Source of the DNA: Halogeometricum rufum
GTDB taxonomy: Archaea; Halobacteriota; Halobacteria; Halobacteriales; Haloferacaceae
Assembly: GCF_900112175.1 (NCBI RefSeq)
Contig: NZ_FOYT01000001.1
Coordinates: 1,488,001-1,552,000 of the forward strand
Direction: 5' to 3'
Length of the DNA stretch: 64,000 bases
Shown piece after piece: positions 3 through 63,350 of this stretch. Each line of letters opens with the position of its first letter. Position 1 is the first letter of the stretch. The notes under the pieces are model-generated. The model saw nothing but the letters and a program-made list of their open reading frames with translations. It was not told where the DNA came from and ran no database searches. The translations under genes were made by a program, and so were the position numbers.

Positions 3-1202
3 TACGAGAAGATTCAGTACCGCCTCGTGCGCGACATCGTCGGTCTCGGTCCGCTCGAACCCATCATGCGCGACCCGGCGAACGAGGACATTCACGTCAT
101 CGGGCCCCAGCAGGTGGACGTCGACCACGGCGTGTTCGGCCTCCTCGAGACCACGGTCGAGTTCGGCTCGAAGGACGACTTCGACAACTGGCTTCGGAAC
201 ATGGGTGAGCGCATCGGCGACCCCGTCTCCGACGCTCACCCCATCGTGGACTCGACGCTGCCGGACGGTTCACGTATCAACATCATCTACTCCGACGACG
301 TGTCGCTGAAGGGGTCGAGCCTCACCATCCGTCAGGGCGACGACGTTCCGCTGTCGGTGTTCCAGATATCGAAGTGGGGGACGCTCTCGCCGGAGTTGTG
401 CGGTTACCTCTGGATGGCGCTGGAGAACGAGCGCACCATCTTCGTGGTCGGCGAGACGGCGTCCGGGAAGACGACGACGCTCAACGCCATCCTCTCGTTC
501 ATCCCGCAGGACTCGAAGATATACACGGCGGAGGACACCGCGGAGGTGCTGCCGCCGCACGACACGTGGCAGCAACTCCTCACGCGCGAGGGGCGCGGTG
601 CGGACTCCGAGGTGGACATGTTCGACCTGGTCGCGGCCGCCCTGCGTTCGCGCCCCGACTACATCATCGTCGGGGAGGTCCGTGGCGAGGAGGGCCGGAT
701 GGCGTTCCAGGCGGCCCAGACCGGTCACCCCGTGATGCTGACGTTCCACGCGTCCGACATCGTCTCGATGATTCAGCGGTTCACCGGCGACCCCATCAAC
801 GTCCCCGAGACGTTCATGTCGAACTGTGACATCGCCCTGTTCCAGAACCGGGTGAAGCGGGGCAACGAGACGCTGCGTCGCGTGACCAGCGTGCAGGAGA
901 TAGAGGGCTACTCCAAGGAGATGGGCGGCGTCGTCACCCGCGAGGCGTTCTACTGGGACCCCGTCGAGGACGAGATCGTGTTCCAGGGGCGGAACAACTC
1001 GTTCATCATGGAGGAGAAGATCGCGACGTTGCTCGGCTACGACGACACGCGGAAGATATACGACGACATCGAGTACCGCGCCGAAATCGTTCGTCGGGCG
1101 CAGCAGGAGAACATCACGGGCTACCACGAAGTGAACGAACTCATCGAGGACTTCCAGCGGGACGGCGCCGAGGGCCTCCCGTTCGACATGGCGAGGTTGT
1201 AA
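3..1202 (+). CDS. arlI: ArlI (FlaI) archaellum motor ATPase, 5'-truncated
   Basis: Secretion-type hexameric ATPase that powers archaellum assembly and rotation on the cytoplasmic face of the membrane. The frame is open from base 3, so the N-terminus lies outside the window; a GTG at 27 is internal, not the start. Visible features are the N-terminal PilT/VirB11-like domain ending in LTIRQGD, Walker [11 protein letters not shown] near base 450, an Asp box and Walker B-like [10 protein letters not shown] near base 665, and a His box [12 protein letters not shown] near base 720. It ends 2 bases before arlJ, the usual partner order in haloarchaea. A general type IV pilus assembly ATPase is the alternative, but the CheF and che neighbours favour archaellum. 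Confidence 0.93.
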
Positions 1203-46843: not shown

Positions 46844-46989
46844 CGACAGAGTAGCGGACCGCACGCCTATTGGGTCTTTTCCAATTGGGCGACAGGTGCA
46901 ACGAACGTTCACGAACCGGCGAATGTGCTACGGTCTCGCGTGCCGGGAGGGAAAGGCGTTACTCGCCTCGGTGGGACGGTCCGACCGAG

Positions 46990-48153: not shown

Positions 48154-48160
48154 TTTTATA
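48154..48160 (+). promoter_or_regulatory. Strong TATA box for the tubulin-locus plus-strand operon
   Basis: TTTTATA, 25 bases before the ATG at 48185, preceded by an A-rich element (CAGAAACA) that fits a BRE, and by another AT-rich stretch at 48128-48145. It stands out from the GC-rich surroundings. Confidence 0.65.
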
Positions 48161-48184: not shown

Positions 48185-49309
48185 ATGCCAGTCCGGCCCG
48201 TCGATAGAGATGTGCTCTCGGATATCTGCGGAGAGATCGCGCAGGACAACTGCGGGTTTCTCTACGTGGACCGTGCGAAGGACCGAATACAGTCGGAGTA
48301 CGAGTCCGCCGACAAGAGTATGCTGAAGGCCGGTTCGGTGACGGCGTCCAGCATCGAAGAGACGTTGTCGGACCTCGCCGCGGACGACGCGTTCGAGTTC
48401 GAACGGTTGCGTCCGCGAGCGTACTACATCTCCCCGTTCGGGGGCGGTGGTCTGGAGAAGCAGATAATGAGTACGCTGACGACGCTCTTTCGCACGCAGA
48501 TGGTCGTCACCGCGGAGGCCATCCGCGACGCGTTCGACATCGCTCACGACGACCTGGCGTTCTTCACCCGCGAACTCAGGAACCGACGGTTCGTGATGCG
48601 AATCGCCGCGGGGAACCGCGAATACTTCACGGTGGGCGGCTACCTCGAGGAGGAGACGGACGAACCCGGACTGACCGACAAACTGGAGACGAAGAGCTTC
48701 TCCGGGAAGATTTCACACGAGCAGTTGGAGGACGCCATCGCCGTTTCGGCGACGTCCGACGTGATCAACTACCTGCAGAGCGAGGGCTACATCGTCGATT
48801 TGGACGGCGAGTACCTGGTCTGTTCGGCCCTCGACGAGTTCACGCGGGGGGTCACGAAGGAGATCTCCGACGACGTCGTCGAGGCTTTCGAGGACGCCGG
48901 GTACGCGATGCCCCGTGACGAGTACGACAGCCTCGTCGAAACCCGCGTCACAGACGTGTCGTCGGTGCTGGATGCCTCGCGGACCGTCCACGACGACACG
49001 CTGTCGGAGACGAGGGTGTTGAACAGCGTTCGCGAGAACCTCGAATCCGGATACGACATCCGCGTGCGAGACGGCGTCGCCGTCCACGCGGACCCGCTAT
49101 CGGAGGTGGTCGAGGACTACGCGTCGGACCTCGTTCGACAGTCGATGGCGAATGGGGGGGCGGCGACGCCGTCCAGTGTGATGGAGGACGTCGACGCGGA
49201 ACTCGACGAGTTACATCTGGCGTCGACGGAGGCCGGGAACGCGCACGTACGAGACCAAATCCGGGAGGCGGCGGCGGAACGGGCCAACGCAGCGTTCGAG
49301 ACCGAGTGA
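48185..49309 (+). CDS. Tandem winged-helix protein, UFL1-like in layout
   Basis: 374 aa soluble protein. At least three helix-turn-helix-plus-wing units can be traced: about 8-83, about 90-153 (LTTLFRTQMVVTAEAIRDAF ... NREYFTVGGYL) and about 172-225 (GKISHEQLEDAIAVSATSDVINYLQSEGYIVD), each ending in a hydrophobic strand, plus a helical C-terminus. The unit order resembles the N-terminal tandem winged-helix array of eukaryotic UFL1, including the YL/FTVGG strand ends. This is a layout resemblance only. First gene of the plus-strand operon. No family name assigned; DNA or protein binding is possible. Confidence 0.7.
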   Translation: MPVRPVDRDVLSDICGEIAQDNCGFLYVDRAKDRIQSEYESADKSMLKAGSVTASSIEETLSDLAADDAFEFERLRPRAYYISPFGGGGLEKQIMSTLTTLFRTQMVVTAEAIRDAFDIAHDDLAFFTRELRNRRFVMRIAAGNREYFTVGGYLEEETDEPGLTDKLETKSFSGKISHEQLEDAIAVSATSDVINYLQSEGYIVDLDGEYLVCSALDEFTRGVTKEISDDVVEAFEDAGYAMPRDEYDSLVETRVTDVSSVLDASRTVHDDTLSETRVLNSVRENLESGYDIRVRDGVAVHADPLSEVVEDYASDLVRQSMANGGAATPSSVMEDVDAELDELHLASTEAGNAHVRDQIREAAAERANAAFETE

Positions 49310-49324
49310 CACAACCGACACAGC

Positions 49325-50365
49325 ATGAACAACTTCGATTCATTCAACAGAAAAGAGACCGAGTACGGGACGTTCGTCATCGCGCAACCGAAGACGACCA
49401 CGGGGGACAAAGAGCCCGTTCGACTGGAGGCGTCGATAGTCGAACGGAACGAGGACGAGGACATGGTGGGGAACTGGGAACCGGTCATCGGCGAGATGGT
49501 CGGCGCCCGTCTGGGCGACGTTCTCTCGATGGACGAGGCCGGAAGCGCGTCGCTCTCTCGCACCGACGTGGTGGAGGCCGTCACGGAGAGCGACAACACC
49601 TCGACGACCACCGAGTGGGAGTCTGAGGCACTCGTCGAGTTCTTCGCCTCGGAGAACATCCTCGACGTCGAGGGCAAGGAGGTGACGGTTCTCAGCGCCC
49701 TCGACGACGTCGAGAGCACCGACGCGCCCATGATCAACAACTGGGCGGCGACGGTCGACGCCTGCGCCAACCGCATCGAGACGGCGGTCGAACAGGTCGA
49801 GAAGGCCAAAGAGCGCCTCGAAGAGCGGGGATCCGACCAGAACCGCCGAGAGATAATCGAGAAGAACCAGCAGAAGGCCAACGAGTACAAACAGGAGATC
49901 GGCGCACTGCTGGACGGGCGACTCCCCTCGGACCTCCCGCCGGAGGAGCACGAGCGATTCGTCGACCTGCGCGAGAAGTACCACACGTACGAGAACAACG
50001 TCACCGCGATGGAGAACGAGATCACCGACGCGACGAAGACCGAACAGTTGGGTGACGTCATCGAGCAACTCGAACATCTCCAGGAAGTCCTGTCGGTGAA
50101 GTCCAACGAGATGCGCGAACTGGTCGTCCAGAAGAACACAGACATCACCGGCGTCCTCGACCAACTCGACGCGCTGAAGAACCTCGTCAGCACCATCGGG
50201 AACACCGTCCCGACCGAGACGCACATGCAGGAGCAGTCCGGCGACGAGTTCGCAGAGGACCTGTTCGGGTCGGAGACGTTCCAACAGACGACCGAGGACG
50301 CGGAGACGCTCCAGACCGGGGGCAGCCTCGCGGAACAGGCCACCGTCGCCGAAGAAGTGAACTGA
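49325..50365 (+). CDS. Coiled-coil cytosolic protein
   Basis: 346 aa. The N-terminal 60 residues look beta-rich (TEYGTFVIAQPKTTTGDKEPV), residues about 75-145 helical, and about 150-290 a strong coiled coil (CANRIETAVEQVEKAKERLEER; MENEITDATKTEQLGDVIEQLE). The C-terminus is polar and Gln/Thr-rich. No signal peptide or membrane segment, so cytosolic. The gene starts 15 bases after the previous stop. Not recognised; candidate adaptor or filament-associated scaffold for the AAA+ ATPase two genes downstream. Confidence 0.72.
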   Translation: MNNFDSFNRKETEYGTFVIAQPKTTTGDKEPVRLEASIVERNEDEDMVGNWEPVIGEMVGARLGDVLSMDEAGSASLSRTDVVEAVTESDNTSTTTEWESEALVEFFASENILDVEGKEVTVLSALDDVESTDAPMINNWAATVDACANRIETAVEQVEKAKERLEERGSDQNRREIIEKNQQKANEYKQEIGALLDGRLPSDLPPEEHERFVDLREKYHTYENNVTAMENEITDATKTEQLGDVIEQLEHLQEVLSVKSNEMRELVVQKNTDITGVLDQLDALKNLVSTIGNTVPTETHMQEQSGDEFAEDLFGSETFQQTTEDAETLQTGGSLAEQATVAEEVN

Positions 50366-50372
50366 CCCGCCG

Positions 50373-51014
50373 ATGCGTGCCTCGTCGTTTCTCCGAGGTG
50401 TCGCACACGTGGAGCGACAGGCGTCCGCCGTCGCCGAGCGACGAGCGTACCCCGAAGACGACCCGGAGCCGTACCGCCGTGCGAACCGCGCGCGCGAGGC
50501 GGTTTCGGACGTCGCCACGCAGTTCGTCGCGTCGGTTCCGCTGCCGACGTCCAGTCGTCGCTCGGGGGCCGACGCCGACGGCGCGGTCGAGACGCTCCTC
50601 GACCGGGTGTACGAGCGGTCGCGTCCCGACCCGAGCGGGTCGGCGTTCGACCGGGCGCGGGCGGTCGGCCGAGCGGACGCCGTCGACGGCATCCTCGTCG
50701 TTCCGCTCGGGTCGGACCCGCCCGGCATCTCGAACTGGTACACCGTCTCGCGGTCGATGGTCCGGTACGCGGGCCGCGCGGCCGTCGTCTGCGACCGCAT
50801 CGAACAGCGACTGCGGACCGCGACACGCCCCGGCGCCGCGGTTCGCTGGCGAGAACTCTCGGAACTCCTCGTCGCGGTCGGTCGAACCGTCGCAACCGTC
50901 GCGGCCGCCCGCGAGTGGATCGACCCGCCGGAGACCGACGCGGACGGTGCGGGCGAACTGATCGCAGTGGCGAAACGAACCGTAGAGCACGTCTCCCCAG
51001 ACTCAACGATATGA
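50373..51014 (+). CDS. Unrecognised cytosolic protein of the tubulin-locus operon
   Basis: 213 aa, Arg/Ala-rich and largely helical (RRANRAREAVSDVATQF; AGRAAVVCDRIEQRLRTATR), with one beta-like patch (VDGILVVPLGSDPPGISNWYTVS). No signal peptide. Its TGA overlaps the ATG of the AAA+ gene (ATGA at 51011), so translation is coupled and the products may act at a fixed ratio. No family recognised. Confidence 0.65.
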   Translation: MRASSFLRGVAHVERQASAVAERRAYPEDDPEPYRRANRAREAVSDVATQFVASVPLPTSSRRSGADADGAVETLLDRVYERSRPDPSGSAFDRARAVGRADAVDGILVVPLGSDPPGISNWYTVSRSMVRYAGRAAVVCDRIEQRLRTATRPGAAVRWRELSELLVAVGRTVATVAAAREWIDPPETDADGAGELIAVAKRTVEHVSPDSTI

Positions 51015-52714
51015 ACCGAGAGAAACTCACACTCATCACGAACGACAACGAACCCACCTCGCACGTCCGCGTCGGGCGAAGCCGAGTCTCCCCCTCGACG
51101 GACGTGGTGCAGGTGTCGTACCGCGGACAGAGCGCGTACTTTCGCGTCCAGACCGAAGACGACCGGGTCGCGAACAAGATTCGCAACCGCGGGTACGTCC
51201 ACGGGAACGTCGCACCCATCCTCGGCGGTAGCGACGACGTCGGCCGGAAGTGCCTCGTGGATTCGAGTGCGACGATTCGCGACGTTCCGGCCTGTTCGAC
51301 CGCCAAGCTGTACGCTCCCGGTACCGACGAGGACCAACTCACGTCGGCGCTCGTGGACTCGCAGTACCTGCTCCACGAGATAGAGGAGGTTCCGAAGTTC
51401 GGCCCCGACGGCTTCAGTTTCACCGTCGTGGAGATGGATCCGTCCGGCTACTCGACGCTCAGAGTGACCCCCGAGACGGAGTTCGAATTCGTCGACGAGG
51501 GTGAGTGGGCCGAGCAACGCCGCGAGCGGAAGACGCAGAGTCGGGGTGCGGACGAGGCAGGCGCGGGCGGCGGCCGCGGCGAGTCCGACGACGAAGAACC
51601 CACCGTCGACATCGAACCGACGAATCCGAGCGTCAGTTTCGAGGAGGACGTGGCGGGACTCGAATCGGTCAAGCAGACGGCTCGGATGCTGCTGTCGCTG
51701 TACGACCCCGACGTGCAGGCCCAGATGAAGGAGTTGTACGGCGGCACGTTCGCGTCTCGGAGCGGGAGTATGCTCCTGTACGGCCCGCCCGGGTGCGGGA
51801 AGACGCTCGTGTCGGAGGCCATCGCGTACGAGGCGAAGCACGAGACGGACATCGAGGCGCGCCGCGGAGACGTGAAGTTCCTCGAAGTCGAGGCGAGCGA
51901 CATCGTCTCGAAGTACATGGGCGAGTCGGAGAAGAACATCCGGGCGGTGTTCGACCAGGCGCACGACCTGTCGAGCGAGGGGTTCGTCGTCCTTTTTTTC
52001 GACGAAGTCGAGACGCTCATCCCGGACCGAAGCGACGAGAACCTCAAGCGGTCCGAGCGGTCACTCACCAACGCGTTCCTGCAGGAGATGAACGACGTGG
52101 AGGACAACCTGTTCGTCATCGGCGCGACGAACATGCCGTTCTCCATCGACCCGGCCGCGACTCGCCGGTTCCCCATTCAGCAGTTCATCCCGCAACCGGA
52201 CGAGCGCGTGATGTCGCAGGTTTGGCAGAAGACGCTCTCCTCGCTGCCCAACGCGGGCGACATCGACTTCGAGCGGCTCGGGCGGAAGTCGACCGGCTAC
52301 ACGCCCGCCGAAGTCGCAGACCGCGTCCTGGGGAGCGACCTCAGGCGCGAACTCATCGAGAGCGTCGTCGAGGACGGCCGCGAGCCGATAACCGTCACGA
52401 CGGACTACCTCGTCGAACAGCTCGAATCGACGGAACCGAAGACGGTCAACCAGTACGTCGCAAGCGTCAGAAAACAGCTCTCGGACCTCGAAGGCTATCC
52501 CGAACTGAAGCGGTACATCGAACGACAGGTCGAGGAGTTGGACGAACCGACCGGCGGCCGCGACGGCGGTGGGTCGGGCGCCGAACTGGTCCGACAGCTG
52601 ATGCAGAGCGCCGACGGCGACGGCGACGCTTCGGACCCGAGCGCCGACGGCGCCGGCGAGGCACCGTCCTCCGACGGCGGCGGCGGAGACGGCGCGGAGG
52701 CCGGTGGTGACTGA
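51011..52714 (+). CDS. AAA+ ATPase: Cdc48-like N-domain with Vps4/katanin-like core
   Basis: 567 aa. Residues about 15-165 have the Cdc48/p97 N-domain pattern (SRVSPSTDVVQVSY ... KLYAPGT ... FSFTVVEMDPSGYSTLRVTPETEFEF). A linker (166-205) leads to one AAA+ module: Walker A GPPGCGKT 258-265, pore loop SKYMGESEK (300-308), Walker B VVLFFDE 326-332, sensor Asn374 in VIGATNMPF, and Arg finger pair at 385-386 in IDPAATRRFPIQQFIPQP. That last stretch resembles the Vps4/katanin/Msp1 clade rather than the GRFD of Cdc48 D1. The C-terminal 50 residues are acidic Gly/Asp-rich. Predicted protein-remodelling motor. Confidence 0.9.
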   Translation: MNREKLTLITNDNEPTSHVRVGRSRVSPSTDVVQVSYRGQSAYFRVQTEDDRVANKIRNRGYVHGNVAPILGGSDDVGRKCLVDSSATIRDVPACSTAKLYAPGTDEDQLTSALVDSQYLLHEIEEVPKFGPDGFSFTVVEMDPSGYSTLRVTPETEFEFVDEGEWAEQRRERKTQSRGADEAGAGGGRGESDDEEPTVDIEPTNPSVSFEEDVAGLESVKQTARMLLSLYDPDVQAQMKELYGGTFASRSGSMLLYGPPGCGKTLVSEAIAYEAKHETDIEARRGDVKFLEVEASDIVSKYMGESEKNIRAVFDQAHDLSSEGFVVLFFDEVETLIPDRSDENLKRSERSLTNAFLQEMNDVEDNLFVIGATNMPFSIDPAATRRFPIQQFIPQPDERVMSQVWQKTLSSLPNAGDIDFERLGRKSTGYTPAEVADRVLGSDLRRELIESVVEDGREPITVTTDYLVEQLESTEPKTVNQYVASVRKQLSDLEGYPELKRYIERQVEELDEPTGGRDGGGSGAELVRQLMQSADGDGDASDPSADGAGEAPSSDGGGGDGAEAGGD

Positions 52715-52719
52715 GAGCG

Positions 52720-55503
52720 ATGGCCGCCGAACACCACCGGTACGTGCGGTCGCACGCGTTCGAGGTGGGCGACGTCGTGGCGACGGCGTCGGGCCCCGAC
52801 TACGCCGCGGTCACCGACGGAGAGCGAGTCGAACTCGTCGACACCGACGGTCACGTCGCCGTCGAACTGGACGCGCCCGTCAGCGCACTCGCCGCGGACC
52901 GAACGCGGACGTACTGTCTCTGTGAGTCGGACGTCACCGCAGTCTCGCGCGGTGGTGCGGTCACGTGGCGGGTGGACGTCGCGGACGCGCAGGAACTGAC
53001 GGCCGACCCGGCGGGCACGTTCGTCGTCGTCGCGACGAGCGAGGGCGAACTGGTCGGCCTCGACGCCGACGTCGGGACGGAACGGTTTCGCGTCCCCCAA
53101 CCCCACCGCGACGTCGCCGGCGCGCCGAACGTCACCTGCCTCGGCGACAGCGTCGTGCTCGCGAGTTGGTCGTTCGTCACCGTCCTCGACGACCGAGGGG
53201 AGACGGTCGCCGAGACGTCCATCGACGGCGCGGCGGAGTCCGTCTCGTCGCTCGGCGACGACCGGATACTCGTCTCGACGAAGGACGGCCGTCTGGTCTG
53301 TCTGGACGCCGAGGGCGAGGTGGCGTGGGAACACCGCGCGGACGTCTCGTGGGTCGCCGAGAGCGGCGACGAGTGGGTCGCGGCCGTCCTCGACGACGAG
53401 GACGCCATCGGAGCCATCGAACCCGACGGGACTGTCGAAGCCGTCCACGACCGGTCGGGGTCGGCGCACGCCGTCGCGGCCGACGGGAGTACCGTCTGCG
53501 TCGTTCGGAACGGGACGCTCGTCGCGTACCGCGCGGCGGGCGCCGCCGCCGACCTCTCGGTCGCGTTCGACGACGACCACCTCGTCCCGGGCGAGGAACT
53601 CACGGTGACGATACAGAACGAGGGCGACGAACGCGCCGTTGCGACGGTGGCCGTGGACGCCGACGGGGCCACGGTGGGAACGACGGCGTTCGACGTTACG
53701 CTCGACCCGGGCGAACGGAGCGACCGGCAGGTAGACGTCGTCGCCGTCGAGTCCGGCCGCCAGTCCGTGGACGCGCGCGTCACGCTCGACGGCGAACGGG
53801 CCGCCGAAACGACGTTCGAAGTGTCGGAACTGTCGGGCGACCCCGTGACAGCCGACGCCGTCGTTCGCGACGTCTCGGAGGGCGGAGCGTCGGTCGAGGT
53901 GATGGTCCGGAACGACTCGCACGAACCGCTCACCCGGGTCGGAGTCGGTTCTCGGGGGACGGCGACGGTTCCACCCGGTCGGACGGAGACGTTCACCGTC
54001 CGGCGGTCGCTCCCCGTCGACCGCCTCTCCGTCGTCGGGCAGAACGTCGACGTCGAGGCGTCGGTCGAGTCCGACCTGGACGAACCGGTCGTCTCGGTCC
54101 GCGGCCGCGACGACGGCTGGTTCGACGTGCGCGTCGTGAACGAGACGGACACGCGGTTCGAGGACGTCCTCCGCGTCGAGGTTTCGGGGAGCGTCGAGGC
54201 CGACCCGTTCCCCGCCGCCGGGGCGACCCGCCCGGTCGAGATTCCCCCGCGAGGGACGTTCGTCCTCGCGTATCCCGCTCCGGGGACGTCGGCCGACGAA
54301 CGGGCGTTCGAGGTGACCGCGTCGCTCGACGGCGTCTCCGCGTCCGTGGACCGACGCCGCGTCCGTGTCTCCGGTCTCGCGGTCGACCCGCTGCGACGGA
54401 CCGGCGCGTCGGAACCGTCCGGCGCTCGGGAACGGACGCGGGCGGGTCCCGCCTCGGAACCGGCACTCCCGGCCGGGAGCGGCGAGGGCGACGCGTCGGC
54501 CGGGAACGTCCCCGCTTCGGTGGACGTCGAACGGTCGTTCGGGGACACGGCGACGGCCGGAACCGCGTTCGTCGAACGGCTCACCGTGGAGAACCACAGC
54601 GACCGACCCGTCGCGCCGGTCGTTCGGTTCGAAGCGACCGACGAGACGCCGTCCGAGCGGGTCGAACTCGACTCGCTGGACCCGGGAGCGGCGACGAGAG
54701 TCACGCGCCGCCACGCCGCGTGGGGACGCGACGAACTCACGCTGGCCGGGGGCGTCGTAACAGACGGCGACGAGCGGGTCGAATCGTTCGGGGCCGCGAG
54801 CGTTCCCGTGGATCCGAACCCCCTGTTGATCCGTCTGTGGGCGCCCGTCGGCGCGTCGACGCTCGACGTCGTCGTCGAGAACACCGGCGACCGGCCGCGG
54901 ATAGTGACCCAAATCGCCGTCCGGGGGGCGCGTAACGGGGAGACCATCGACGAGGTCGTCGACCCCGGCGAGACGGTCGACCGCTCGGTCTCGATGACCG
55001 ACTCGATACCCGACGACGCCGTCCGCGCGGCGGTCGAACACGCGCCCGCAGACGACCCCGACGCGACGGCGTACTTCGAAACGCTGGTCGCGCGCCGGGA
55101 GCGTCCGGGGCGAACCGTCGACCTGTCGGCGGCCGTCGCGCCCGAGACGGATATCGCCGACGGCTACGGTGAAGTCGTCCTCCGGTTCACCAACGAGGGG
55201 GACGCCACGCTCGACGCCGTGACGGTGGAGGCGACGGGCGCGGCGCCCGACGATTACCTCTACTACGGTCCCGAATCGTTCGAGTCGGTCGAATCGGGCG
55301 AGTCGTTCACGCACCGAGTCGACGTCGACGCGGACGCGGACGAACTCCGCCTCCCCGTCGACGTGACCACCGAAACTGCCGACGAGACGGCGAGCGAGTC
55401 CGTCGTCGTCGAATCCGTCGACGGGTCGCTCGCCGCGTCCGGACGTCGCGACGACCCGGCGTTGCGTCCGGTCGTTCTCGTCACGACGGCACGAGAGGAG
55501 TAG
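52720..55503 (+). CDS. Beta-propeller plus Ig-like repeat protein, apparently cytosolic
   Basis: 927 aa, no signal peptide or membrane segment. Residues about 10-275 form PQQ/WD-type propeller blades (AVTDGERVELVDTDGHVAVEL; TFVVVATSEGELVGLDADVGTERF; RILVSTKDGRLVCLDAEGEVAWEH). From about 277 to the end come CARDB-like/Ig-like domains (LVPGEELTVTIQNEGDERAV; AFVERLTVENHSDRPVAPVV; GYGEVVLRFTNEGDATLDAV). Such Ig-like strings are normally extracellular, so their place in a cytosolic frame is unusual. Last gene of the plus-strand operon; stop 59 bases from the convergent operon. Confidence 0.75.
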   Translation: MAAEHHRYVRSHAFEVGDVVATASGPDYAAVTDGERVELVDTDGHVAVELDAPVSALAADRTRTYCLCESDVTAVSRGGAVTWRVDVADAQELTADPAGTFVVVATSEGELVGLDADVGTERFRVPQPHRDVAGAPNVTCLGDSVVLASWSFVTVLDDRGETVAETSIDGAAESVSSLGDDRILVSTKDGRLVCLDAEGEVAWEHRADVSWVAESGDEWVAAVLDDEDAIGAIEPDGTVEAVHDRSGSAHAVAADGSTVCVVRNGTLVAYRAAGAAADLSVAFDDDHLVPGEELTVTIQNEGDERAVATVAVDADGATVGTTAFDVTLDPGERSDRQVDVVAVESGRQSVDARVTLDGERAAETTFEVSELSGDPVTADAVVRDVSEGGASVEVMVRNDSHEPLTRVGVGSRGTATVPPGRTETFTVRRSLPVDRLSVVGQNVDVEASVESDLDEPVVSVRGRDDGWFDVRVVNETDTRFEDVLRVEVSGSVEADPFPAAGATRPVEIPPRGTFVLAYPAPGTSADERAFEVTASLDGVSASVDRRRVRVSGLAVDPLRRTGASEPSGARERTRAGPASEPALPAGSGEGDASAGNVPASVDVERSFGDTATAGTAFVERLTVENHSDRPVAPVVRFEATDETPSERVELDSLDPGAATRVTRRHAAWGRDELTLAGGVVTDGDERVESFGAASVPVDPNPLLIRLWAPVGASTLDVVVENTGDRPRIVTQIAVRGARNGETIDEVVDPGETVDRSVSMTDSIPDDAVRAAVEHAPADDPDATAYFETLVARRERPGRTVDLSAAVAPETDIADGYGEVVLRFTNEGDATLDAVTVEATGAAPDDYLYYGPESFESVESGESFTHRVDVDADADELRLPVDVTTETADETASESVVVESVDGSLAASGRRDDPALRPVVLVTTAREE

Positions 55504-55561: not shown

Positions 55562-58291
55562 TCAGGCGTCGGCCGGGGACGAAGCGACGAGGAAGTCGCC
55601 GCTCGACGCCGTCCGCGCGTCCTGCACGTAGGCGTACAGTCTGCGAGCGACGGTGACGAGGAGTCCGAGCGCGACGAGTCCGTACAGGGCGAGCGACCCG
55701 TACAGCGTGTACTCGGTCACCCGGAGCGACTGCCGCGCGGCCGCTTGTTCGGCGCGTGTCCGACTCGCCTCCTCGGTCGCACCCGCGGCGGTGAACTCCG
55801 TCCGCGCCCGCTCGTAGTGGCTGAGTGCCCTGTCTGTCCGGTCGGTGACCGCGTCGAACCGGGCGGGGTTCAACACGACGCCGTAGTCGAACAGGACGAA
55901 CGTGGCGTTCGCTTCGACGGCGGCGCGCACGTCGCGCGCGTCCCGCCGGGTCGCACTCGCGTTCCGCACCTGTTCGAGGTACGTGTCGAACGCCGCGTCG
56001 GCCTCGGTCCGCAACTGCTCGGCGCGCTCAGATTCGCCGCTGGCGGCCGCGAGGGTTCCGAGACTCCGCTTCGCTCGCGCGCGTTCGATAGTGGTGGCGT
56101 CCTCGGCTGCCAGCGTCTCTCGGTAGTGTCGCTCCTGTTCGGCGACCAGTTCTCCGAGGCGTTCGTCGCCCGCAGTGACGGCGTCTTCGGCCGGTCGGCT
56201 GACCTCCGGCGCGGTCAGGTCGTCGACGTACGCGCGCATGGATCGATGCGCGGCGGCGGCGCGAACGATAGCCGTCTGCGCCGCCGAGTAGTTCCCCGCG
56301 GACTGGGCGTCTCCGGCCGCGGCGGCCGACTCGATGAACAACTGCGTGCCGCGTCCCGCCGCGAGGCCGGCCGAGAGGTCGTCGCTGGGGACGGACTCGC
56401 CCGACTGCAGCCGCGACTCGATACGGTCGAGCGACGTCGACATCTCTCCGGCGACGGTCCCGCGCCATCCGCTCTCGGAGGACTGCTCGCGCAGGGGTTC
56501 GGTGATACGGTCGAACGAGTACGGTTTCGTGGTCGCGCGCACCGTAATTCGCTCGGACTCGACGCCCGACCCGGACAGCACGAACGTCCAGTTGTACGAC
56601 CGGTACAGTTCGGCCTGCGTGTCGAACTGGAGGGCGAACACGAGCGGTGCTCGCTCGCCGGGTTCGAACGCGTTCGGCGGCCGTTCGGCGACCGTCAGCC
56701 ACCGGTCGGGCCCGGACACCTTCTCGAGCGTCACGTCGTCCACGCGCTCGTACTCGAGGAGTTCCGAGACCCGCAGGCTCTCGGTTCGCTCCTTCGTCAC
56801 CACCGTCTCGCCGAACTCGACGTCGTTCCGTTCGACGTCGAGTTCGACGCCGTGGTCGACGGAGACCGCTCGGGTGACGGTCTTCTCCCCCGCCGACGCC
56901 GTCCGGACGGTCACGGTGACCTCGTAGGTTCCCTCGGGCGCGTCCGGGGCCGCGCTGTATTCGAGCGTGGCGCTCCCGGTGCCGAGGCCGGCGACCGACG
57001 ACGGTTCGTCGCTGACGGAGACGTCGACGAGTTCGGTGTCGGTCGTCGCCGTCACGGACTCGACGTCCATCCGCAGGTCACCCGTGTTGCTGAACTCGAC
57101 AGTCGACGTCTCGGTGTGGCTGGCCACCTCCGACTTCGGCCGGTCGAACAGTATCTCCGTGTCCGGCGCCGTCACCTCGCCGAGTTTCGCGGGGTAGATG
57201 ACGCGCGCCTCCACGTCGAACGTCTTCGTCGGACTCCCTCGGTCGTCGGCGGTGAGTTTGACGTCCCACGACAGCGTCTCGTGCTGGTCGGCGCCGTCGC
57301 CCGCCAAGACGGTCATCTCCGCGGTGTCCTCTCCGCCGGGGCCGGTCTCGACGTACGCCAGACCCGACAGCGAGAGTCGGCCGTCAGCCTCGACGCCGAC
57401 GATTTCGCCGGAGACGCCGTCGAGTCCGGAGAACCCGGCCGCCTCTCTGACGGTGAACGTCCTCGTCGACGACTGGCCGACGAGGATGTCGCCGACGTCG
57501 ACGGTGTTCGTGGCCGCCTCCGCGACGGCCGGCTTGCGCACCGTCACGCTGACGGGGAACTGGTCGGAGTGCCCGAGGTTGTCGGTCAGCGTCGCGGAGA
57601 ACTCGTACGTCCCCTCGTCGACGGACGAATCGACGGTCACGTCGAAGTTCATCCCGTCGGTGCTGTCGCCGGCGACTCGGTTCGGGAGGCTCACACCGCC
57701 CACGTCGAACCCGTCCGGAACGCCGGAGAACGTGACCTCCGTCGGCTTCATCACGCCTCGTCCCTCGTTGGATATCTCGGCGGAGACGCGCTCACTCTGG
57801 GCGTCGTCGTCCGTGAATGTGACCGTCGTCTGGTCCGTCCGCACCTCGCCCATCCGGGGAGAGCGCACGTCGACCGACAGCGACAGGCTCTCGCTGGCGA
57901 CGTAGCCGCCGGACTGCGTCTCGACCCGGGCCGTCGCCGAGTGAGTCCCCTCCGACGCGCCGGACTCTGCCGTCGCGTGGTAACTGACGCGGTACGTGCC
58001 GCCGTCCACCACCTGCCAGGACTGGCTCCCACCGCTCCCGCCGCCGTCGGTCCGTTCCCACTCGTCGAAGGTGAAGTAGACGTTGCCCCCGTCCAGACGC
58101 ATCGACTCTGTCGCCGTCACCGTCGCGTTCGAACCGGCGGTGAACGTGAACGACAGCGTGTCGGACTCCGCTTGGTCGTCGAGAGCCTCGTCGAGTTCGA
58201 CTGACCCCGACGCGGCGACTGCCGTCGACGGGACCGACCCGAGGACGACGACGAGTGCCACGAGAGCGGCCAGCAGGCCGGACTTACGCAT
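55562..58291 (-). CDS. Membrane-anchored Ig-like/helical-repeat surface protein
   Basis: 909 aa. Signal peptide 1-26 (LLAALVALVVVLGSVPSTAVAA), then Ig/CARDB-like extracytoplasmic domains to about 620 (VDVRSPRMGEVRTDQTTVTF; FTVREAAGFSGL), then an alpha-helical stretch (about 625-855) with TPR-like pairs (AAGDAQSAGNYSAAQTAIVR; LSHYERARTEFTAAG), and a C-terminal membrane helix (about 859-881) with a short basic-acidic cytosolic tail. Overlaps the upstream gene by 8 bases. No family recognised; topology suggests an outside structural module tied to the membrane. Confidence 0.78.
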   Translation of the reverse strand: MRKSGLLAALVALVVVLGSVPSTAVAASGSVELDEALDDQAESDTLSFTFTAGSNATVTATESMRLDGGNVYFTFDEWERTDGGGSGGSQSWQVVDGGTYRVSYHATAESGASEGTHSATARVETQSGGYVASESLSLSVDVRSPRMGEVRTDQTTVTFTDDDAQSERVSAEISNEGRGVMKPTEVTFSGVPDGFDVGGVSLPNRVAGDSTDGMNFDVTVDSSVDEGTYEFSATLTDNLGHSDQFPVSVTVRKPAVAEAATNTVDVGDILVGQSSTRTFTVREAAGFSGLDGVSGEIVGVEADGRLSLSGLAYVETGPGGEDTAEMTVLAGDGADQHETLSWDVKLTADDRGSPTKTFDVEARVIYPAKLGEVTAPDTEILFDRPKSEVASHTETSTVEFSNTGDLRMDVESVTATTDTELVDVSVSDEPSSVAGLGTGSATLEYSAAPDAPEGTYEVTVTVRTASAGEKTVTRAVSVDHGVELDVERNDVEFGETVVTKERTESLRVSELLEYERVDDVTLEKVSGPDRWLTVAERPPNAFEPGERAPLVFALQFDTQAELYRSYNWTFVLSGSGVESERITVRATTKPYSFDRITEPLREQSSESGWRGTVAGEMSTSLDRIESRLQSGESVPSDDLSAGLAAGRGTQLFIESAAAAGDAQSAGNYSAAQTAIVRAAAAHRSMRAYVDDLTAPEVSRPAEDAVTAGDERLGELVAEQERHYRETLAAEDATTIERARAKRSLGTLAAASGESERAEQLRTEADAAFDTYLEQVRNASATRRDARDVRAAVEANATFVLFDYGVVLNPARFDAVTDRTDRALSHYERARTEFTAAGATEEASRTRAEQAAARQSLRVTEYTLYGSLALYGLVALGLLVTVARRLYAYVQDARTASSGDFLVASSPADA

Positions 58292-59333
58292 CGTCCCACC
58301 CCACGACCGGAACGATTTCGCCCACGCGCGCTGCGCGGGCGTCTCGACCCCACAGTCCGACGCGGTGACCGACGAGTGCGGCGGCGCCCGCGAGGACGAG
58401 TGCGTACGCGAGCGACAGCAACGCGCTGCCGACGGTGAACGTCTCTAGCGCCGTCTCGCTCCGGGCTGCGAGCGACGTCGCCGCCTCCCGTCGGTCGGTC
58501 AGCGAGTGTTCGCCCGCTATCGCCGCGGCCTGCGAGGCGTGTCGATGGACGCGCCGCGCTTCGACGTACTGCGCGTACACGCCGGACGGGTTCGCTCGCA
58601 CGGCCGCGAGCGGCGATTCACAGCCCGAACAGCCGTCGAGGAACGACGACGCACGCGCCGTCGCAGCGTCGAACGTCGCAATGTCCGCCTCGAACGTCGA
58701 GCGGAGGTCGCTCTCTCTGACGGCTAACTCCGAGAACCGCTGGGACGCCCCCGCCCGCTTGAACGCCGACGCCGACTTCGAGAGCAGCGAGAGGCGTTCG
58801 GGAGTCGATTCGGCGTTTCGCGCCCGTTCGAACAGGCGCGACCCCTGTCGCTCGTAGAAGCGGTCCAGCGCGAGACTCGCCAGGTCGGCGTACCGGCTTC
58901 CCCCTGTCTCCCGCAGGTCGGTTATCGCCGTCGCCGTCTCGGCGGCCTTCGACATGCTCGCGTCGTAGTCGCCGTCCTCGGCGAGGCCGTGAGCGCTGAC
59001 GAACGAGTCGAGGGTCGCGAGGACGAGTCGCATCCGTCGCGCCTCCGCGTCGGTGAGGTCACCTATCTGCGTGCTCGTCACGGCTTGACTGCGGACCACT
59101 TCGAGTTCGCCGTACGCCTCCAGGGCGGGTTCCTCCTCGTAACCCCGGAGTTCGGCGAGGAAGTCGTCCGCCGTCTGTGGTTCTACTCGCTGTTCGACCG
59201 TCCCCGCGTCGAAGGCACCGCTCACCGGCGCCGCCGTCAGCAGGAGTGCGGCGACGACGACGAGGGCGGTTCGACCGTACCGCCTCGCGCCGCGCCGGTC
59301 GGTGTCGTCGTGTGATTGTGGTATCTCTCTCAT
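58284..59333 (-). CDS. Helical membrane-anchored surface protein
   Basis: 349 aa. Signal peptide about 15-40 (TALVVVAALLLTAAPVSGA), an alpha-helical extracytoplasmic domain with a CSGC pair (in LDGCSGCESPL), and a C-terminal membrane helix at about 301-325. The start at 59333 lies 2 bases after the previous stop; longer upstream frames are rejected. Its helical domain has the same general makeup as the second half of the 909-residue product of the next gene, so the two could pair. Unrecognised family. Confidence 0.72.
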   Translation of the reverse strand: MREIPQSHDDTDRRGARRYGRTALVVVAALLLTAAPVSGAFDAGTVEQRVEPQTADDFLAELRGYEEEPALEAYGELEVVRSQAVTSTQIGDLTDAEARRMRLVLATLDSFVSAHGLAEDGDYDASMSKAAETATAITDLRETGGSRYADLASLALDRFYERQGSRLFERARNAESTPERLSLLSKSASAFKRAGASQRFSELAVRESDLRSTFEADIATFDAATARASSFLDGCSGCESPLAAVRANPSGVYAQYVEARRVHRHASQAAAIAGEHSLTDRREAATSLAARSETALETFTVGSALLSLAYALVLAGAAALVGHRVGLWGRDARAARVGEIVPVVGWDDA

Positions 59334-59335
59334 CG

Positions 59336-62152
59336 TCAGAACATCGTCCGTTCGAGTCGTTCTCTCAACGCCGGTTCGTCGAAGAGGCCCTCCGCGGCGT
59401 CGAGGAGGCCACAGGCGGCGAACACGGTGACTGCGTGGGTGACGTCGTCGTCGTCCTTCGCCCTCCCGACGAGTCGTTTCACCTCGTCGTACGTGTCGCT
59501 CACCGGGTATATCGAGGAGACCGCGCCCCGTTCGCCGTCTATCCGCTCGTCGACCGACTGGAGCCGGGACCGCAACTCGCGTCGCTGCTCGACGCGCTGT
59601 TGGCCGACCAGTTCGAACAGGTAGTCCACCTCGAACGAGTCGGCCCACTCGACGCGGGCGTCGGGCATGTCGGCGCAGGCGGTGAACAGGTCGACGTTGT
59701 GTTTCGTCGTCATCGCGTCGTCGACGACGCCGACCAGGTCGTCGGCGCGGTCCAACACCGCGTCGGTCACGTGGTCGGGCGACGCACCGGTCCGCGCGAA
59801 CTGCCGTCCGCAGTTCGGGAGTCGTTCGACGGTGTCGAGGAGCGAATCGACCACGCTGCCGTAGTACCGCGGAACTGCGACGTCGGTCGTCCGCGAGGAC
59901 GTGAGGTCGTCGACGCCGTCCCGTATCGCGTTCGCCCGGTCGCGCTGGCCGTCGTCGAGCGACCAGACGAACGCCACGTCGAGCGTCACGTCGGCGGTCT
60001 CGGCCGCCGAGACGGTCACGTCAGACGGCGAGCAGTCGAACCACGGCGCGTCGGCGGACGCGGTGACCCGGTACCGACCGACGGGCACCTCGTCGAACGA
60101 GACGCGCCCGTTCGCGTCCGTCGTGGCCCGCGCGACGTCCAGTCGGTCCCGCGCCCACTCGTCGCGCGCGTCGAGTTCGACGGCGACGTTCGGCCGAGGG
60201 ACGCCGTCGACGGACACCGACGCCGAGACGCGCCCGCGTTCGGGCGTGAGCCTGAACGTGACCGCTTCGCCGTGGCTTTCGGCGAACCGTTCGCGCGGGA
60301 CGTCCTTCTCCTTCGACTCGTATCTGTCCCGGTCGACTGCGAGTCGCGCCCCGTCGGCCTGCCGCGAGAGTTCCAGTCTGGCGCTCCCGTCGGGGCCGGT
60401 CCGCAGTCGGTCCGTTCGCCCGTCCTCGCCCACGTCGATAGCGACGTCCGACAGCGGTTCGTCGGTAGCCTCGTCGCGGACGACGACGTCTACCTCGTAC
60501 GGCGGTATCTCGAACGTCAAGTTCTCCGTTTGGTACGCCGTCGAGACGTGTCTCGGACCGCGCTGCTTGTCGGCGTCGACGGTGACTTCCCAGTCGTCGA
60601 CGCCGCCGTCGAGCGACACCGTCGCTTCGCCGCCTTCCACCCGCTCGGTCTTCCGCCGGGCGGGTTCGTGCGACTGGACGGTCTCGCTGCTCCGCCGCGG
60701 TTCCGCGACGAGTCTCACCGGGCCGTCGTACGGTTCCCCGCGCTTCTTGTCGCGAACGTTCACCGTGAGTTCCGTCGGCGGCGCCGTGGGTTCCCCCGCC
60801 GGCCGACCCTTCGTGTCGCGGGTGAGCAACCAGACGACAGCGAGGACACCCAGAGCCACCACGAAGACGACGAAGACGACGAAGACGATGTCCGAGGAAG
60901 GGAACGACGGGAGGAGTCCGCCCGACGCCGACCCGTCGCCGCCCGCGCCGCCCCCGCCGTCCGCCTGCGCGGCGGTGAGCGACCCGTACGAACCGCCCTC
61001 ACCGATGGTGACGGGCAGCGTCGGCCGGCCGTCGAACGCGAGAAGTAGCTGGTAGTAGCCCCCCTCCTCGAGCGCGTACCCCGTCCCGGAGAGGTTCACC
61101 GTCCCGTCGGTGGCGTCGACGTCCGTCAGTCGCCGGACGCCGTCGTCCGTGCGAATCCAGAGGTAGGAGAAGTCGGCGGCCGCGAACCGCTCGCTGTCGA
61201 CGGTGAACGCCGTCCCGTTCGCCGTGAGCGTCGCACCGACCGTCTGCGCGGTCGGCGTCCCCGCCGTGACGACGGCGCCGTCGGTCGTTCTGACCGTCGC
61301 GTTCAGGCCCCCCACCGCCGCGAGACTCGCCGCTTCGACCGTCAGTCGGCCCGGGGCCGACGCCTCGACGGGGCGTCTGAACACTCCCTCGGAGGCCGAC
61401 GATCGGACGACGACGGCGTACGTCGTCCCGTTCCTGATGGCGGGGCTGTCGATGTGGATGCCCGCGCCGGTCCGTTCGACCGCCGTCGCGTCCCGCGCCG
61501 CGGCGAGGAGGTTTACCGTCCGCTCCCCGCGAAGGGGCGTCTCGCCCTCGGGGGGTCGGACGGTCGCGTCCGTCGACGTCAGCGACGGCCCATACCCCGC
61601 CCTCGGCACGTCGAGTACCGTCGTCCCGGAGGCGTTTCGAACCGTCGCGGTGGTCTTCGTCGTTCCGACGACGACAGTCAGTTCGTCGCCGTCGGAGAGA
61701 CCGACGGAACGGTCGAGTTCGAGTCTGAGTTCGGCCGTCCCGTTGGACACCGTGAACCCTCGGGACTGGCCGAGTCGCGCGTGCCTGAGGTCGAGCGATT
61801 CGCGCGCCAGTTGGGTTCCGCTCGACGTGCGTTTCACCGTAACGGAGACGTTCGAGAGGTCGCCGTCGGGGAACCGGTCGGGCGCGATTCGGTACGTCGC
61901 CCGGCCGCCTGTCGTGTCGTTCGGCACCTGTCGCTCGACTGTCTTCTGTCCCAGTCGGACGGTTATCGCCGACTCGTTGGTGGCGTTCGTCTTCACGACG
62001 AGGTCGCCGTTCTCGGTCGAGACGGTCGCCTCCTCGGCCGCGACGACGCCCGCGCACGCCGACGCGACGAGGAGCATCGCCGCGACGACGCTGAGTCCGA
62101 CCGCGACCCGCCGGCCCGCGCCCGTCGCCGTCTGAGTCCGCTCTCGGGTCAT
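59336..62152 (-). CDS. Bitopic protein with cytosolic carboxypeptidase-regulatory-like repeats
   Basis: 938 aa. Signal peptide 1-39, extracytoplasmic Ig-like domains to about 395, a Gly-rich hinge (399-412), one membrane helix (421-443: DIVFVVFVVFVVALGVLAVV) with basic TRDTKGR on its inside end, then about 490 cytosolic residues: Ig-like strand blocks of the carboxypeptidase-regulatory type (NVAVELDARDEWARDRLDVA; ATTDANGRVSFDEVPVGRYR) and a helical C-terminus with several Cys. Starts 1 base after the tubulin-like gene. Could relay between the cytosolic GTPase and the envelope; inferred. Confidence 0.78.
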   Translation of the reverse strand: MTRERTQTATGAGRRVAVGLSVVAAMLLVASACAGVVAAEEATVSTENGDLVVKTNATNESAITVRLGQKTVERQVPNDTTGGRATYRIAPDRFPDGDLSNVSVTVKRTSSGTQLARESLDLRHARLGQSRGFTVSNGTAELRLELDRSVGLSDGDELTVVVGTTKTTATVRNASGTTVLDVPRAGYGPSLTSTDATVRPPEGETPLRGERTVNLLAAARDATAVERTGAGIHIDSPAIRNGTTYAVVVRSSASEGVFRRPVEASAPGRLTVEAASLAAVGGLNATVRTTDGAVVTAGTPTAQTVGATLTANGTAFTVDSERFAAADFSYLWIRTDDGVRRLTDVDATDGTVNLSGTGYALEEGGYYQLLLAFDGRPTLPVTIGEGGSYGSLTAAQADGGGGAGGDGSASGGLLPSFPSSDIVFVVFVVFVVALGVLAVVWLLTRDTKGRPAGEPTAPPTELTVNVRDKKRGEPYDGPVRLVAEPRRSSETVQSHEPARRKTERVEGGEATVSLDGGVDDWEVTVDADKQRGPRHVSTAYQTENLTFEIPPYEVDVVVRDEATDEPLSDVAIDVGEDGRTDRLRTGPDGSARLELSRQADGARLAVDRDRYESKEKDVPRERFAESHGEAVTFRLTPERGRVSASVSVDGVPRPNVAVELDARDEWARDRLDVARATTDANGRVSFDEVPVGRYRVTASADAPWFDCSPSDVTVSAAETADVTLDVAFVWSLDDGQRDRANAIRDGVDDLTSSRTTDVAVPRYYGSVVDSLLDTVERLPNCGRQFARTGASPDHVTDAVLDRADDLVGVVDDAMTTKHNVDLFTACADMPDARVEWADSFEVDYLFELVGQQRVEQRRELRSRLQSVDERIDGERGAVSSIYPVSDTYDEVKRLVGRAKDDDDVTHAVTVFAACGLLDAAEGLFDEPALRERLERTMF

Positions 62153-62153
62153 G

Positions 62154-63350
62154 TTACTCGTTGACCTTCATGTACTGCCGAAGGTTCTCTTCTATCGTGT
62201 CGAGTTCCCCCTTCGGGATGCGTTCGTTTCCGAGACGACGCCCTGCAGCGAGGTTCTCCCGGTGGCTCTCGTACTGGTCCCACGCGTGGTCGACGAGCGG
62301 GTTCAGGTCGAAGCCGCCGAGCAACAGGAGGACGTCGACGCCGTTCCCCGTCGCCCGTTTCGGGGTGAGCGTCTCCATGCCGACGGTGCCGGTGAGCCCG
62401 TGCTTTCGCTTCCAGGAGTCGAACGCCTGCTTCACGTCGTTCGTCGTGAGTTCGTCCCCGACGAGGTGCTCCGGTGCGCGGACGATGGCGTAGGCGGCCC
62501 GGCACGTCTCGACGTCCATCGGAACGTACGTCGCCTCGGACGCTCTGTCGAACATGTGTTCGAGCGACCGAATCTGGTAGTTCTCGTCGGTGGTGACGGC
62601 GGGCGTGAAGTGGTAGCCGCTGATGTTCGAGGGCTGGGCGACGTAGTCCTCCACGTCGATGACGCGTTGGGTCTCCCGACCGGCGCTGATGAGCAGGTCG
62701 ACCGCCTCCACGATTCGCTCGTTCACCAGTTCGTACTCGCCGCTCCCGCCGACGGTGTCGTCGCCCTCGATGTGGGAGTTCGCCGCCAAGAGCACCATGT
62801 CCGCGTTCTGTGAGTTGTCCTCCCGACAGAGGAGCCGAGAGAGCCCGCAGACGGCGTTGAACTGCTGCTGTATCGCCTCGTTGTAGTACGGCCAGATACC
62901 GAACGTGATGTGGACGCCGTCGCGCATCCACGCTCGCTGGTCGTCGATGTCGGTCGGGTCGCCGAACTGGTTGACGAGGTACGGAATGGACCCGTTCCCC
63001 GTCCCGCCGCCGAGCGTCGTCAGGTAGAGGAAGGCGTCGGCGTTGCCGGCGTCGTTCTCTATCTGGCTGACGATGTCGTCGATGTCCTCCTGAGCGCACT
63101 GCCGCCCGTCGACGAACGAGTTGCCGACGCCGCGCTTGGAGCCGAACATGACCGCCTTCTCCGCCAGCGTCTCGGGCACGTTCGACCCCTCGATGGTGTT
63201 ACGGATGTCCGCGCGGTTCGTGTTCAGCAGTATCATCCGGTCGTCGATGCCGGGGTTCTCGGTCCGCGCGAAGAAGTCGGCCGTCACGCGGCCGCCGCCC
63301 TCGCCGGACGAGACGACGGCCCACCGGGTGAAGGTGTCTGAGCGGGACAT
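62154..63350 (-). CDS. Divergent FtsZ/tubulin-superfamily GTPase
   Basis: 398 aa. The nucleotide-binding set is complete: T1 GEGGGR (16-21), T2 LNTNRAD (42-48), T3 GSKRGVGNSF (70-79), signature T4 GGGTGNGS (114-121), T5/H6 region PYYNEAIQQQFNAVCG, H7 with Asn210, and T7 catalytic loop VIDVEDY (230-236) with Asp232 and Asp235. The set fits a non-FtsZ1/2, non-CetZ tubulin family (Tubulin_2 or FtsZ-like group) better than canonical FtsZ. It should bind GTP and polymerise, though polymerisation is unproven. Overlaps the preceding gene (TAATG) and lies 1 base before the 938-residue membrane protein gene. Confidence 0.88.
   Translation of the reverse strand: MSRSDTFTRWAVVSSGEGGGRVTADFFARTENPGIDDRMILLNTNRADIRNTIEGSNVPETLAEKAVMFGSKRGVGNSFVDGRQCAQEDIDDIVSQIENDAGNADAFLYLTTLGGGTGNGSIPYLVNQFGDPTDIDDQRAWMRDGVHITFGIWPYYNEAIQQQFNAVCGLSRLLCREDNSQNADMVLLAANSHIEGDDTVGGSGEYELVNERIVEAVDLLISAGRETQRVIDVEDYVAQPSNISGYHFTPAVTTDENYQIRSLEHMFDRASEATYVPMDVETCRAAYAIVRAPEHLVGDELTTNDVKQAFDSWKRKHGLTGTVGMETLTPKRATGNGVDVLLLLGGFDLNPLVDHAWDQYESHRENLAAGRRLGNERIPKGELDTIEENLRQYMKVNE

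Follow-up and report, generated by a model that had tools for sequence, protein, structure and literature searches.

A predicted tandem winged-helix protein at the head of a Halo_adaptin-type locus in Halogeometricum rufum: a candidate scaffold beside a Cdc48-type ATPase and three tubulin-like families

What could a row of winged helices be doing at the head of an operon that also encodes a Cdc48-like ATPase? The question is raised by g1, the first gene of operon g1–g5 in the stretch of Halogeometricum rufum DNA analysed here (64,000 nucleotides, hereafter the window). The first-pass annotation of this DNA had described the g1 product as a tandem winged-helix protein with the layout of UFL1 and had proposed that it is an adaptor for protein extraction, possibly linked to ubiquitin-like modification.

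Gene content of the locus and the published Halo_adaptin type

The g1 product is 374 residues long and its frame opens with ATG. A TTTATA element lies about 27 nt upstream of this start, and such spacing is the geometry expected of leaderless haloarchaeal genes. g1 is a conserved gene and more than a chance open reading frame, because it has relatives (34–51% identity) in 25 of the 291 other genomes searched. Counting its own genome, 26 genomes of the 292 searched in this class carry g1, and they come from 14 of 77 genera. In a sample of the phylum (392 genomes) there are seven clear matches, all in the genome itself, the same family or the same order, and a single weak match of 19.7 bits. Alignment A1, which holds g1 of the window and 24 of the 25 relatives (L033 was left out), has 40 invariant columns. 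A contig search with the single g1 protein as query found no relative; with alignment A1 as query, 18 loci were found.

The genes of the operon are separated by gaps of 15, 7, −4 and 5 nt (Table 1). Gene presence in relatives was judged by tblastn in 25 stretches of 20 kb each, two of them shortened by contig ends. Gene order is the same in the relatives' loci. The g4 miss (L036) and the g5 misses (L036, L043) are all at contig ends. Among the five stretches without g6, L036 and L043 end early, and L034, L035 and L037 come from genomes (G017, G098 and G061, respectively) that have the tubulin genes elsewhere. A second, convergent operon runs from about 73.2 kb in window count (read from the overlapping stretch L002) back to 55562 and encodes three tubulin-like proteins alongside membrane proteins and proteins with possible Ig-like domains or related ones. 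Signal peptides and transmembrane (TM) helices of g6–g8 and g10 are predicted from hydropathy, which gives no signal peptide and one marginal hydrophobic stretch (residues 138–156) in g5. The propeller of g5 is a BamB-type NCBIfam match with an E-value of 5.1e-8, under the curated cut-off, and the Ig-like calls on g5 and g6 are CARDB and Big_13 Pfam matches under cut-off.

Table 1. Features of the two operons, in window count
Feature	Position	Strand	Basis
TATA-like box TTTATA	48155..48160	+	sequence; putative promoter element
g1, tandem winged-helix protein, predicted four units and helical tail	48185..49309	+	ORF list, conservation, model, fold searches
g2, 346 aa, coiled-coil-like C-terminal part	49325..50365	+	sequence; 24/25 relatives' stretches
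g3, helical protein of 213 aa, in the place of the published PspA/ESCRT-III-like gene	50373..51014	+	model; 21/25 relatives' stretches
g4, Cdc48-N-like domain (weak) and single AAA+ ATPase	51011..52714	+	Pfam, profiles, tree; 24/25 relatives' stretches
g5, beta-propeller (PQQ/BamB-like), possible Ig-like domains	52720..55503	+	sub-cut-off matches, hydropathy; 23/25 relatives' stretches
g6, signal peptide, possible Ig-like repeats, C-terminal TM helix	55562..58291	-	Pfam, hydropathy; 20/25 relatives' stretches
g7, signal peptide, C-terminal TM helix, start uncertain	58284..59339	-	hydropathy, tblastn in relatives
g8, signal peptide, TM helix 422–440, then CarboxypepD_reg	59336..62152	-	Pfam over cut-off, hydropathy
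g9, tubulin-like protein 1	62154..63350	-	Pfam Tubulin E 5.6e-9, tree
g10 (3' part), membrane protein, two TM helices	63350..64000	-	L002, hydropathy
g11, g12, g14, g16	past window end, same operon	-	L002
g13, tubulin-like 2	66761–67951 (L002:4761-5951), beyond window, same operon	-	L002
g15, tubulin-like 3	69463–71079 (L002:7463-9079), beyond window, same operon	-	L002

ESCRT-like loci named 'Halo_adaptin' have been described by Makarova et al. 2024 (mBio, PMC10936438; preprint PMC11188069). In the passages of the preprint that deal with them, the ATPase is Vps4-like, lacks a MIT domain and carries a domain related to VAT-N; upstream of it lies a gene with weak likeness to PspA. Two winged-helix proteins belong to arCOG11740 (the first gene) and arCOG11741 (joined to a coiled coil), and the loci also encode propeller–Ig 'adaptin-like' proteins, other Ig proteins, one CetZ-related protein and a membrane protein; a role in sorting or vesicle formation is proposed (PMC11188069). 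The two arCOGs and the locus name are in print, in versions of one work (PMC11188069, PMC10936438). Shared with our locus are the winged-helix gene in first place, a gene with coiled-coil-like sequence in second and a small gene in third, the ATPase with a single AAA domain behind an N-terminal domain (weakly Cdc48-N-like here), a probable propeller adaptor, membrane proteins and a tubulin-like gene outside the CetZ branch. Because order and content fit this description, we regard g1 as a member of a described kind; position and content make it a probable member of arCOG11740, and g2 is a probable member of arCOG11741. The published passages differ from our results in three respects: they speak of duplicated winged-helix domains, whereas the g1 model has four units, they name one CetZ-related protein, whereas we find three tubulin-like families, and they report a PspA likeness of the third gene that we could not reproduce for g3. 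Four winged helices in g1, as predicted by the model, are new here. Our literature search found no experiment on this type of locus.

A cluster of vWA, BatA and DUF7502 proteins (Pfam) also lies in the neighbourhood, at 40931-46912 on the opposite strand and upstream of g1. vWA partners are mentioned for FtsZl1 systems in the relevant part of Makarova and Koonin 2010 (PMC2875224). By tblastn no relative of the cluster was seen in 18 relatives' loci (16 of them with 10 kb upstream) or in the 25 relatives' stretches (3 kb upstream), and because it has no relatives beside g1 we do not count it into the gene set.

Predicted fold of g1 and its likeness to UFL1

The AlphaFold model of g1, made from 18 input sequences (the window and 17 relatives), has a mean pLDDT of 86.7 and a pTM of 0.74. 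It contains winged-helix units at about residues 8–82, 90–150, 163–212 and 213–301, each closing in a strand pair, and tail helices at 302–322, 329–340 and 349–372. The elements are H8-21 E25-27 H28-42 H54-66 E72-76 E79-82 in unit 1, H90-104 H110-117 H121-133 E137-142 E145-150 in unit 2, H163-170 E175-177 H178-185 H190-199 E203-205 E209-212 in unit 3 and H213-237 E241-243 H244-258 H261-267 H275-290 E292-295 E298-301 in unit 4. We read the model as four winged helices followed by a helical tail, of which unit 4, with its extra helix, is the least certain. The earlier description of three or more units before a helical tail is therefore borne out by the model. Mean column conservation is 0.66, 0.66, 0.72 and 0.52 in units 1 to 4 and 0.51 in the tail. 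Profile comparison among the four units (P 0.025–0.26) gave no support to an origin by internal duplication.

Foldseek against the PDB returned 11 matches with E ≤ 0.001, namely five UFL1, five SelB and one TFIIIC chains. The first match is UFL1 (8b9x_A, E 3.0e-6), tied with the best SelB match (1lva, E 5.9e-6); ESCRT-II chains follow at ranks 13, 15 and 21 with E-values from 4.2e-3 to 2.3e-2. In the best 50 rows the query-normalised TM-score is at most 0.26, so g1 resembles these structures as a series of units and not as one rigid body. The top of the VIA-align list is taken by matches to a single unit, with a MukBEF chain at rank 1 (9gm7_C, Z 8.7, 74 aligned residues) and MarR-type proteins at Z of about 8. 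Its multi-unit MukBEF/MukEF rows fit badly (9gm9_D, Z 8.3 at 16.6 Å; 3euh_B, Z 8.1 at 16.5 Å), and the best-fitting multi-unit row with Z of 8 or more is ESCRT-II chain 2zme_B, which we take to be VPS36 (Z 8.1, 141 aligned residues, 5.8 Å). SelB 4zu9 reaches Z 7.7 with 169 aligned residues at 7.1 Å, and UFL1 is absent from the best 50 rows. Among viral structures a single match lies under an E-value of 0.001, an uncharacterised protein of Vibrio phage VpV262 (E 1.3e-5).

Sequence searches add little to this picture. Pfam gave stray matches over the 25 g1 members and NCBIfam gave none; the UFL1 family had no match with E ≤ 0.1 among the 14 families listed for these members. The PDB profile search gave chance-like matches, and no UFL1 chain with E ≤ 10. 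Those to G6PDH (E about 1e-4) span winged helix 3 into the tail, which makes no structural sense, and we rejected them as chance driven by composition. The fold comparison therefore puts g1, as modelled, among the tandem winged-helix scaffolds, with no choice between UFL1, SelB and ESCRT-II.

Each of these three proteins shares the tandem arrangement with g1 and differs from it elsewhere. In SelB, whose C-terminal winged helices also number four, they are the RNA-binding part of a translation factor, and g1 has no EF-Tu-like domain. We know of no helical tail in ESCRT-II comparable to that of g1. ESCRT-II (VPS36/VPS22) is the published analogy for loci of the Halo_adaptin type, and the preprint passage on it gives two winged helices per subunit and the related subunits Vps22, Vps36 and Vps25 (PMC11188069). 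UFL1, like g1, has a row of winged helices and then a helical C-terminal part; it has a partial unit plus five winged helices, as against four units in g1. According to the parts of PMC9627666 on its structure, UFL1 has a partial N-terminal winged helix that needs UFBP1 for completion, and it acts on UFC1. Unit 1 of g1 is, in contrast, complete in the predicted model, and we recognised no UFBP1-, UFC1- or UFM1-like gene in the locus.

Genes for ubiquitin-like and E1-like proteins (ThiS and ThiF families) are present in all 26 genomes with g1, and the ThiS family would presumably include the SAMPs. This presence says little, because both families also have matches in most control genomes (11 and 12 of 14, respectively). 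No such gene was found less than 30 kb from g1 on its contig in any of the 26 genomes, three of which (G141, G162 and G249) are cut by contig ends; the closest lie about 38–40 kb away (G014, G038). The suggested link to ubiquitin-like modification, for which the first-pass annotation had advised a search for a ubiquitin-like gene in relatives of the locus, consequently finds no support in gene context. The first-pass annotation had proposed a fold search as the test that could refute the UFL1-like layout. In that search UFL1 chains make up 5 of the 11 rows with E ≤ 0.001 and the tandem arrangement is present. The layout stands; kinship with UFL1, or specificity for it, does not, given the SelB tie. 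Because there is no sequence match, unit 1 is complete and no ThiS or ThiF gene is nearby, 'UFL1-like' describes here a layout and not kinship, and with no partner gene recognised in the locus either we rejected kinship of g1 with UFL1.

The ATPase g4, the helical protein g3 and the tubulin-like families

The Cdc48-like ATPase ascribed to the operon is indeed there. It is g4, the third gene downstream of g1; its Pfam matches show one AAA domain (E 5.5e-32) and include no MIT family. Its N-terminal domain was said to be Cdc48-N-like, and this part of the description is plausible and weakly shown: over only 29 columns, hhalign matches the first 163 residues to the final part of the N-domain in the Cdc48 proteins of this genome (P 4.7e-4), and a PDB profile search with the N-domain gave chance-like matches only, including matches to myosin that we take as chance.

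The affinity of the AAA domain was examined with a profile of the g4 family, the class labels in this scoring being our own. Five Cdc48-type D2 domains score 69.5–111.6 bits, with four at or above 95; the range for D1 domains is 79.5–95.4 bits, apart from 49.5 for a shorter piece (L092); eight Vps4-type rows score 60–79 bits and two PAN-type rows 64–65. Against the PDB the best E-values of the profile are 1.7e-56 for Cdc48/p97 and 6.1e-35 for VPS4B. NCBIfam gives 124.9 bits for CdvC and 119.5 for CDC48, both far under cut-off. In a 33-row tree the g4 family forms its own clade (support 99/97) and the eight Vps4-type rows form another (100/99); this tree does not settle the sister of the g4 clade, and long branches were flagged in it. 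Judged from these sequence comparisons, g4 is not clearly a Vps4 protein. The PADLOC scan for anti-phage systems matched g4 alone, with AAA-type families (IetA, TRIP13, mads_8), and nothing on the eight other proteins scanned; we rejected a reading of the locus as anti-phage defence.

In Halo_adaptin loci the position of g3 is that of the PspA/ESCRT-III-like gene. The g3 model (pLDDT 87.2, pTM 0.83) is helical, with a hairpin at 118–149/153–183. Foldseek gave no match under an E-value of 0.34. The best VIA-align row is MukF(1-287) (1t98_A 120..281, Z 10.9, 134 aligned residues, 2.9 Å), a Z within the chance range of mostly helical models, for which the tool's own note gives a best Z of about 14. 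A PspA family model run over 30 genomes lists neither g2 nor g3, and profile–profile comparison with 15 haloarchaeal PspA sequences gave P 0.15 for g3 and P 0.01 over 34 columns for g2. Neither protein shows ESCRT-III likeness in Pfam or PDB profiles. The PDB profile search with g2 lists a CdvA chain at E 2.7, which is not significant, and AlphaRep and coiled-coil matches that we take as chance. With nothing convincing from any of these searches we could not confirm an ESCRT-III subunit in g2 or g3, and the ESCRT-III part of the locus is doubtful.

Seven genes of the tubulin family are present in the genome, four that score high against the family and, in addition, g9, g13 and g15. In a 19-row tree the latter three each form a group of their own (SH-aLRT 100, 100 and 99) apart from the other four, and g9 stands outside the CetZ and FtsZ-type members of the genome (SH-aLRT 100). 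The window-genome copy of g15 reads KGTGCGS where the four other members of the genome read GGGTGxG. The distribution of the three families follows that of g1, with counts that come from related genomes and are not independent events. g9 and g13 each accompany g1 in all 26 genomes and were found in none of six chosen genomes that lack it; g15, searched in all 292 genomes, scores at least 477 bits in each of the 26 and, with E ≤ 1e-20, also occurs in 2 of 266 genomes without g1 (232 bits in G081 and 185 bits in G031). In three genomes of one genus the winged-helix/ATPase operon lies apart from the tubulin genes and both are kept: the distance from g1 on the same contig is about 258 kb in G017 (contig C1) and about 71 kb in G098 (contig C26), and in G061 the two are on different contigs (C22 and C5). 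In G162 and G249 g1 is near a contig end, where its linkage to the tubulin genes cannot be judged. Presence as a block and survival of unlinking point to a joint function of g9, g13, g15 and the g1 gene set. That three non-canonical tubulin-like families belong to the Halo_adaptin-type gene set is new here. Literature searches on the tubulin superfamily with ESCRT in haloarchaea and on UFL1 with archaeal winged helices gave no three-tubulin gene set among the matches listed; supplementary tables may list extra tubulins.

Possible roles of g1 in its gene set

We consider it likely that g1 is a protein–protein scaffold of the Halo_adaptin-type gene set. Our main reading goes further and has a probability of about 0.5: g1 would be a cytoplasmic scaffold that heads a two-operon Halo_adaptin system and links membrane adaptors, tubulin-like filaments and the Cdc48-type ATPase. 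The proposed adaptor role in protein extraction would be compatible with such a locus.

A detailed mechanism, which we hold to be less likely than not, can be sketched. The membrane proteins g6–g8 and the intracellular propeller adaptor g5 would gather cargo at the membrane. The tubulin-like GTPases g9, g13 and g15 might form a filament that shapes or organises the site, and g1 together with g2 and g3 might bridge adaptors and filament in the way ESCRT-II stands between cargo and ESCRT-III. Finally, the single-ring ATPase g4 would, by means of its Cdc48-N-like domain, grip one subunit of the assembly, thread it apart and recycle it. The first and the last steps are drawn from domain content and the middle one from the ESCRT-II analogy. 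The scheme builds on the tandem winged helices of the predicted model, the conserved operon and gene set, the co-inheritance of g1 with three tubulin-like families and the AAA identity of g4; we infer from these which parts touch, what is carried, what the tubulins do and what the ATPase acts on.

If g1 instead binds DNA or RNA, it could act as a regulator of the locus or tether the tubulin-like filaments to DNA in a segregation-like manner. SelB, TFIIIC and MarR-type proteins are among its fold matches, and the viral matches include a PSV transcriptional regulator-domain protein. Unit 2 is slightly basic (net charge +1) in a very acidic protein, but the three other units and the tail have net charges of −8 to −13. 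Haloarchaeal proteins are acidic in general. Four units and a tail would be unusual for a regulator, and g1 is conserved together with membrane and adaptor genes. We regard nucleic-acid binding as unlikely.

There is another possibility, in which a Cdc48-N-type AAA protein, aimed by g1, dismantles filaments of the three tubulins at the membrane and the locus holds no true ESCRT-III system. In eukaryotes katanin and Vps4 do work of this kind; here the same job would be done with Cdc48-like parts. This is a distinctly improbable reading at present. We give very little weight to the idea that g1 and g3 are MukE/MukF-type parts of a tandem winged-helix clamp (a kleisin/KITE-like partner) rather than an ESCRT-II analogue. 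MukF is the best VIA-align row of g3, and MukBEF/MukEF chains are prominent in the list of g1 (9gm7_C, 9gm9_D, 3euh_B, 9gmb_C); yet helical bundles reach such Z by chance, Foldseek E-values of g3 are 0.34 or more, the Muk rows of g1 cover one unit only or have an rmsd of 16 Å or more, and no SMC-like Pfam family is found in g1–g16. This likeness of g3 and g1 to MukF and MukBEF may be the chance likeness of helical bundles and winged helices. As for a UFL1-like E3 or adaptor, which would activate or bind an enzyme of ubiquitin-like (SAMP) conjugation and pass the modified proteins on to the Cdc48-like ATPase, the first Foldseek rank, the ThiS and ThiF genes of all 26 genomes and the ATPase in the operon speak for it, but the SelB tie, the 25 members without a UFL1-family match, the complete predicted unit 1 and the distance of the ThiS and ThiF genes from g1 make it highly improbable.

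If the scaffold reading is true, one membrane-sorting machine of some haloarchaea combines three tubulin-like filaments with an ESCRT-II-like scaffold and a Cdc48-type ATPase, parts that serve separate machines in eukaryotes. The fold comparison also shows tandem winged helices of the 'UFL1-like' kind to be a scaffold shape of general use that does not mark ubiquitin-like ligases. At the thresholds applied, g1, g9, g13 and g15 all lack a match in G158, a genome of the same genus as that of the window; the gene set has therefore been gained or lost within one genus. It seems to be inherited or missing as one block (26 of 292 genomes) and may therefore be removable in a cultivable haloarchaeon, which would open the published proposal of vesicle formation or sorting to a direct test. 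As a minor observation, the frame of one g1 relative from a metagenome-assembled genome (L068:1073-2140) stops after 122 codons, which reflects an assembly error or a decayed copy.
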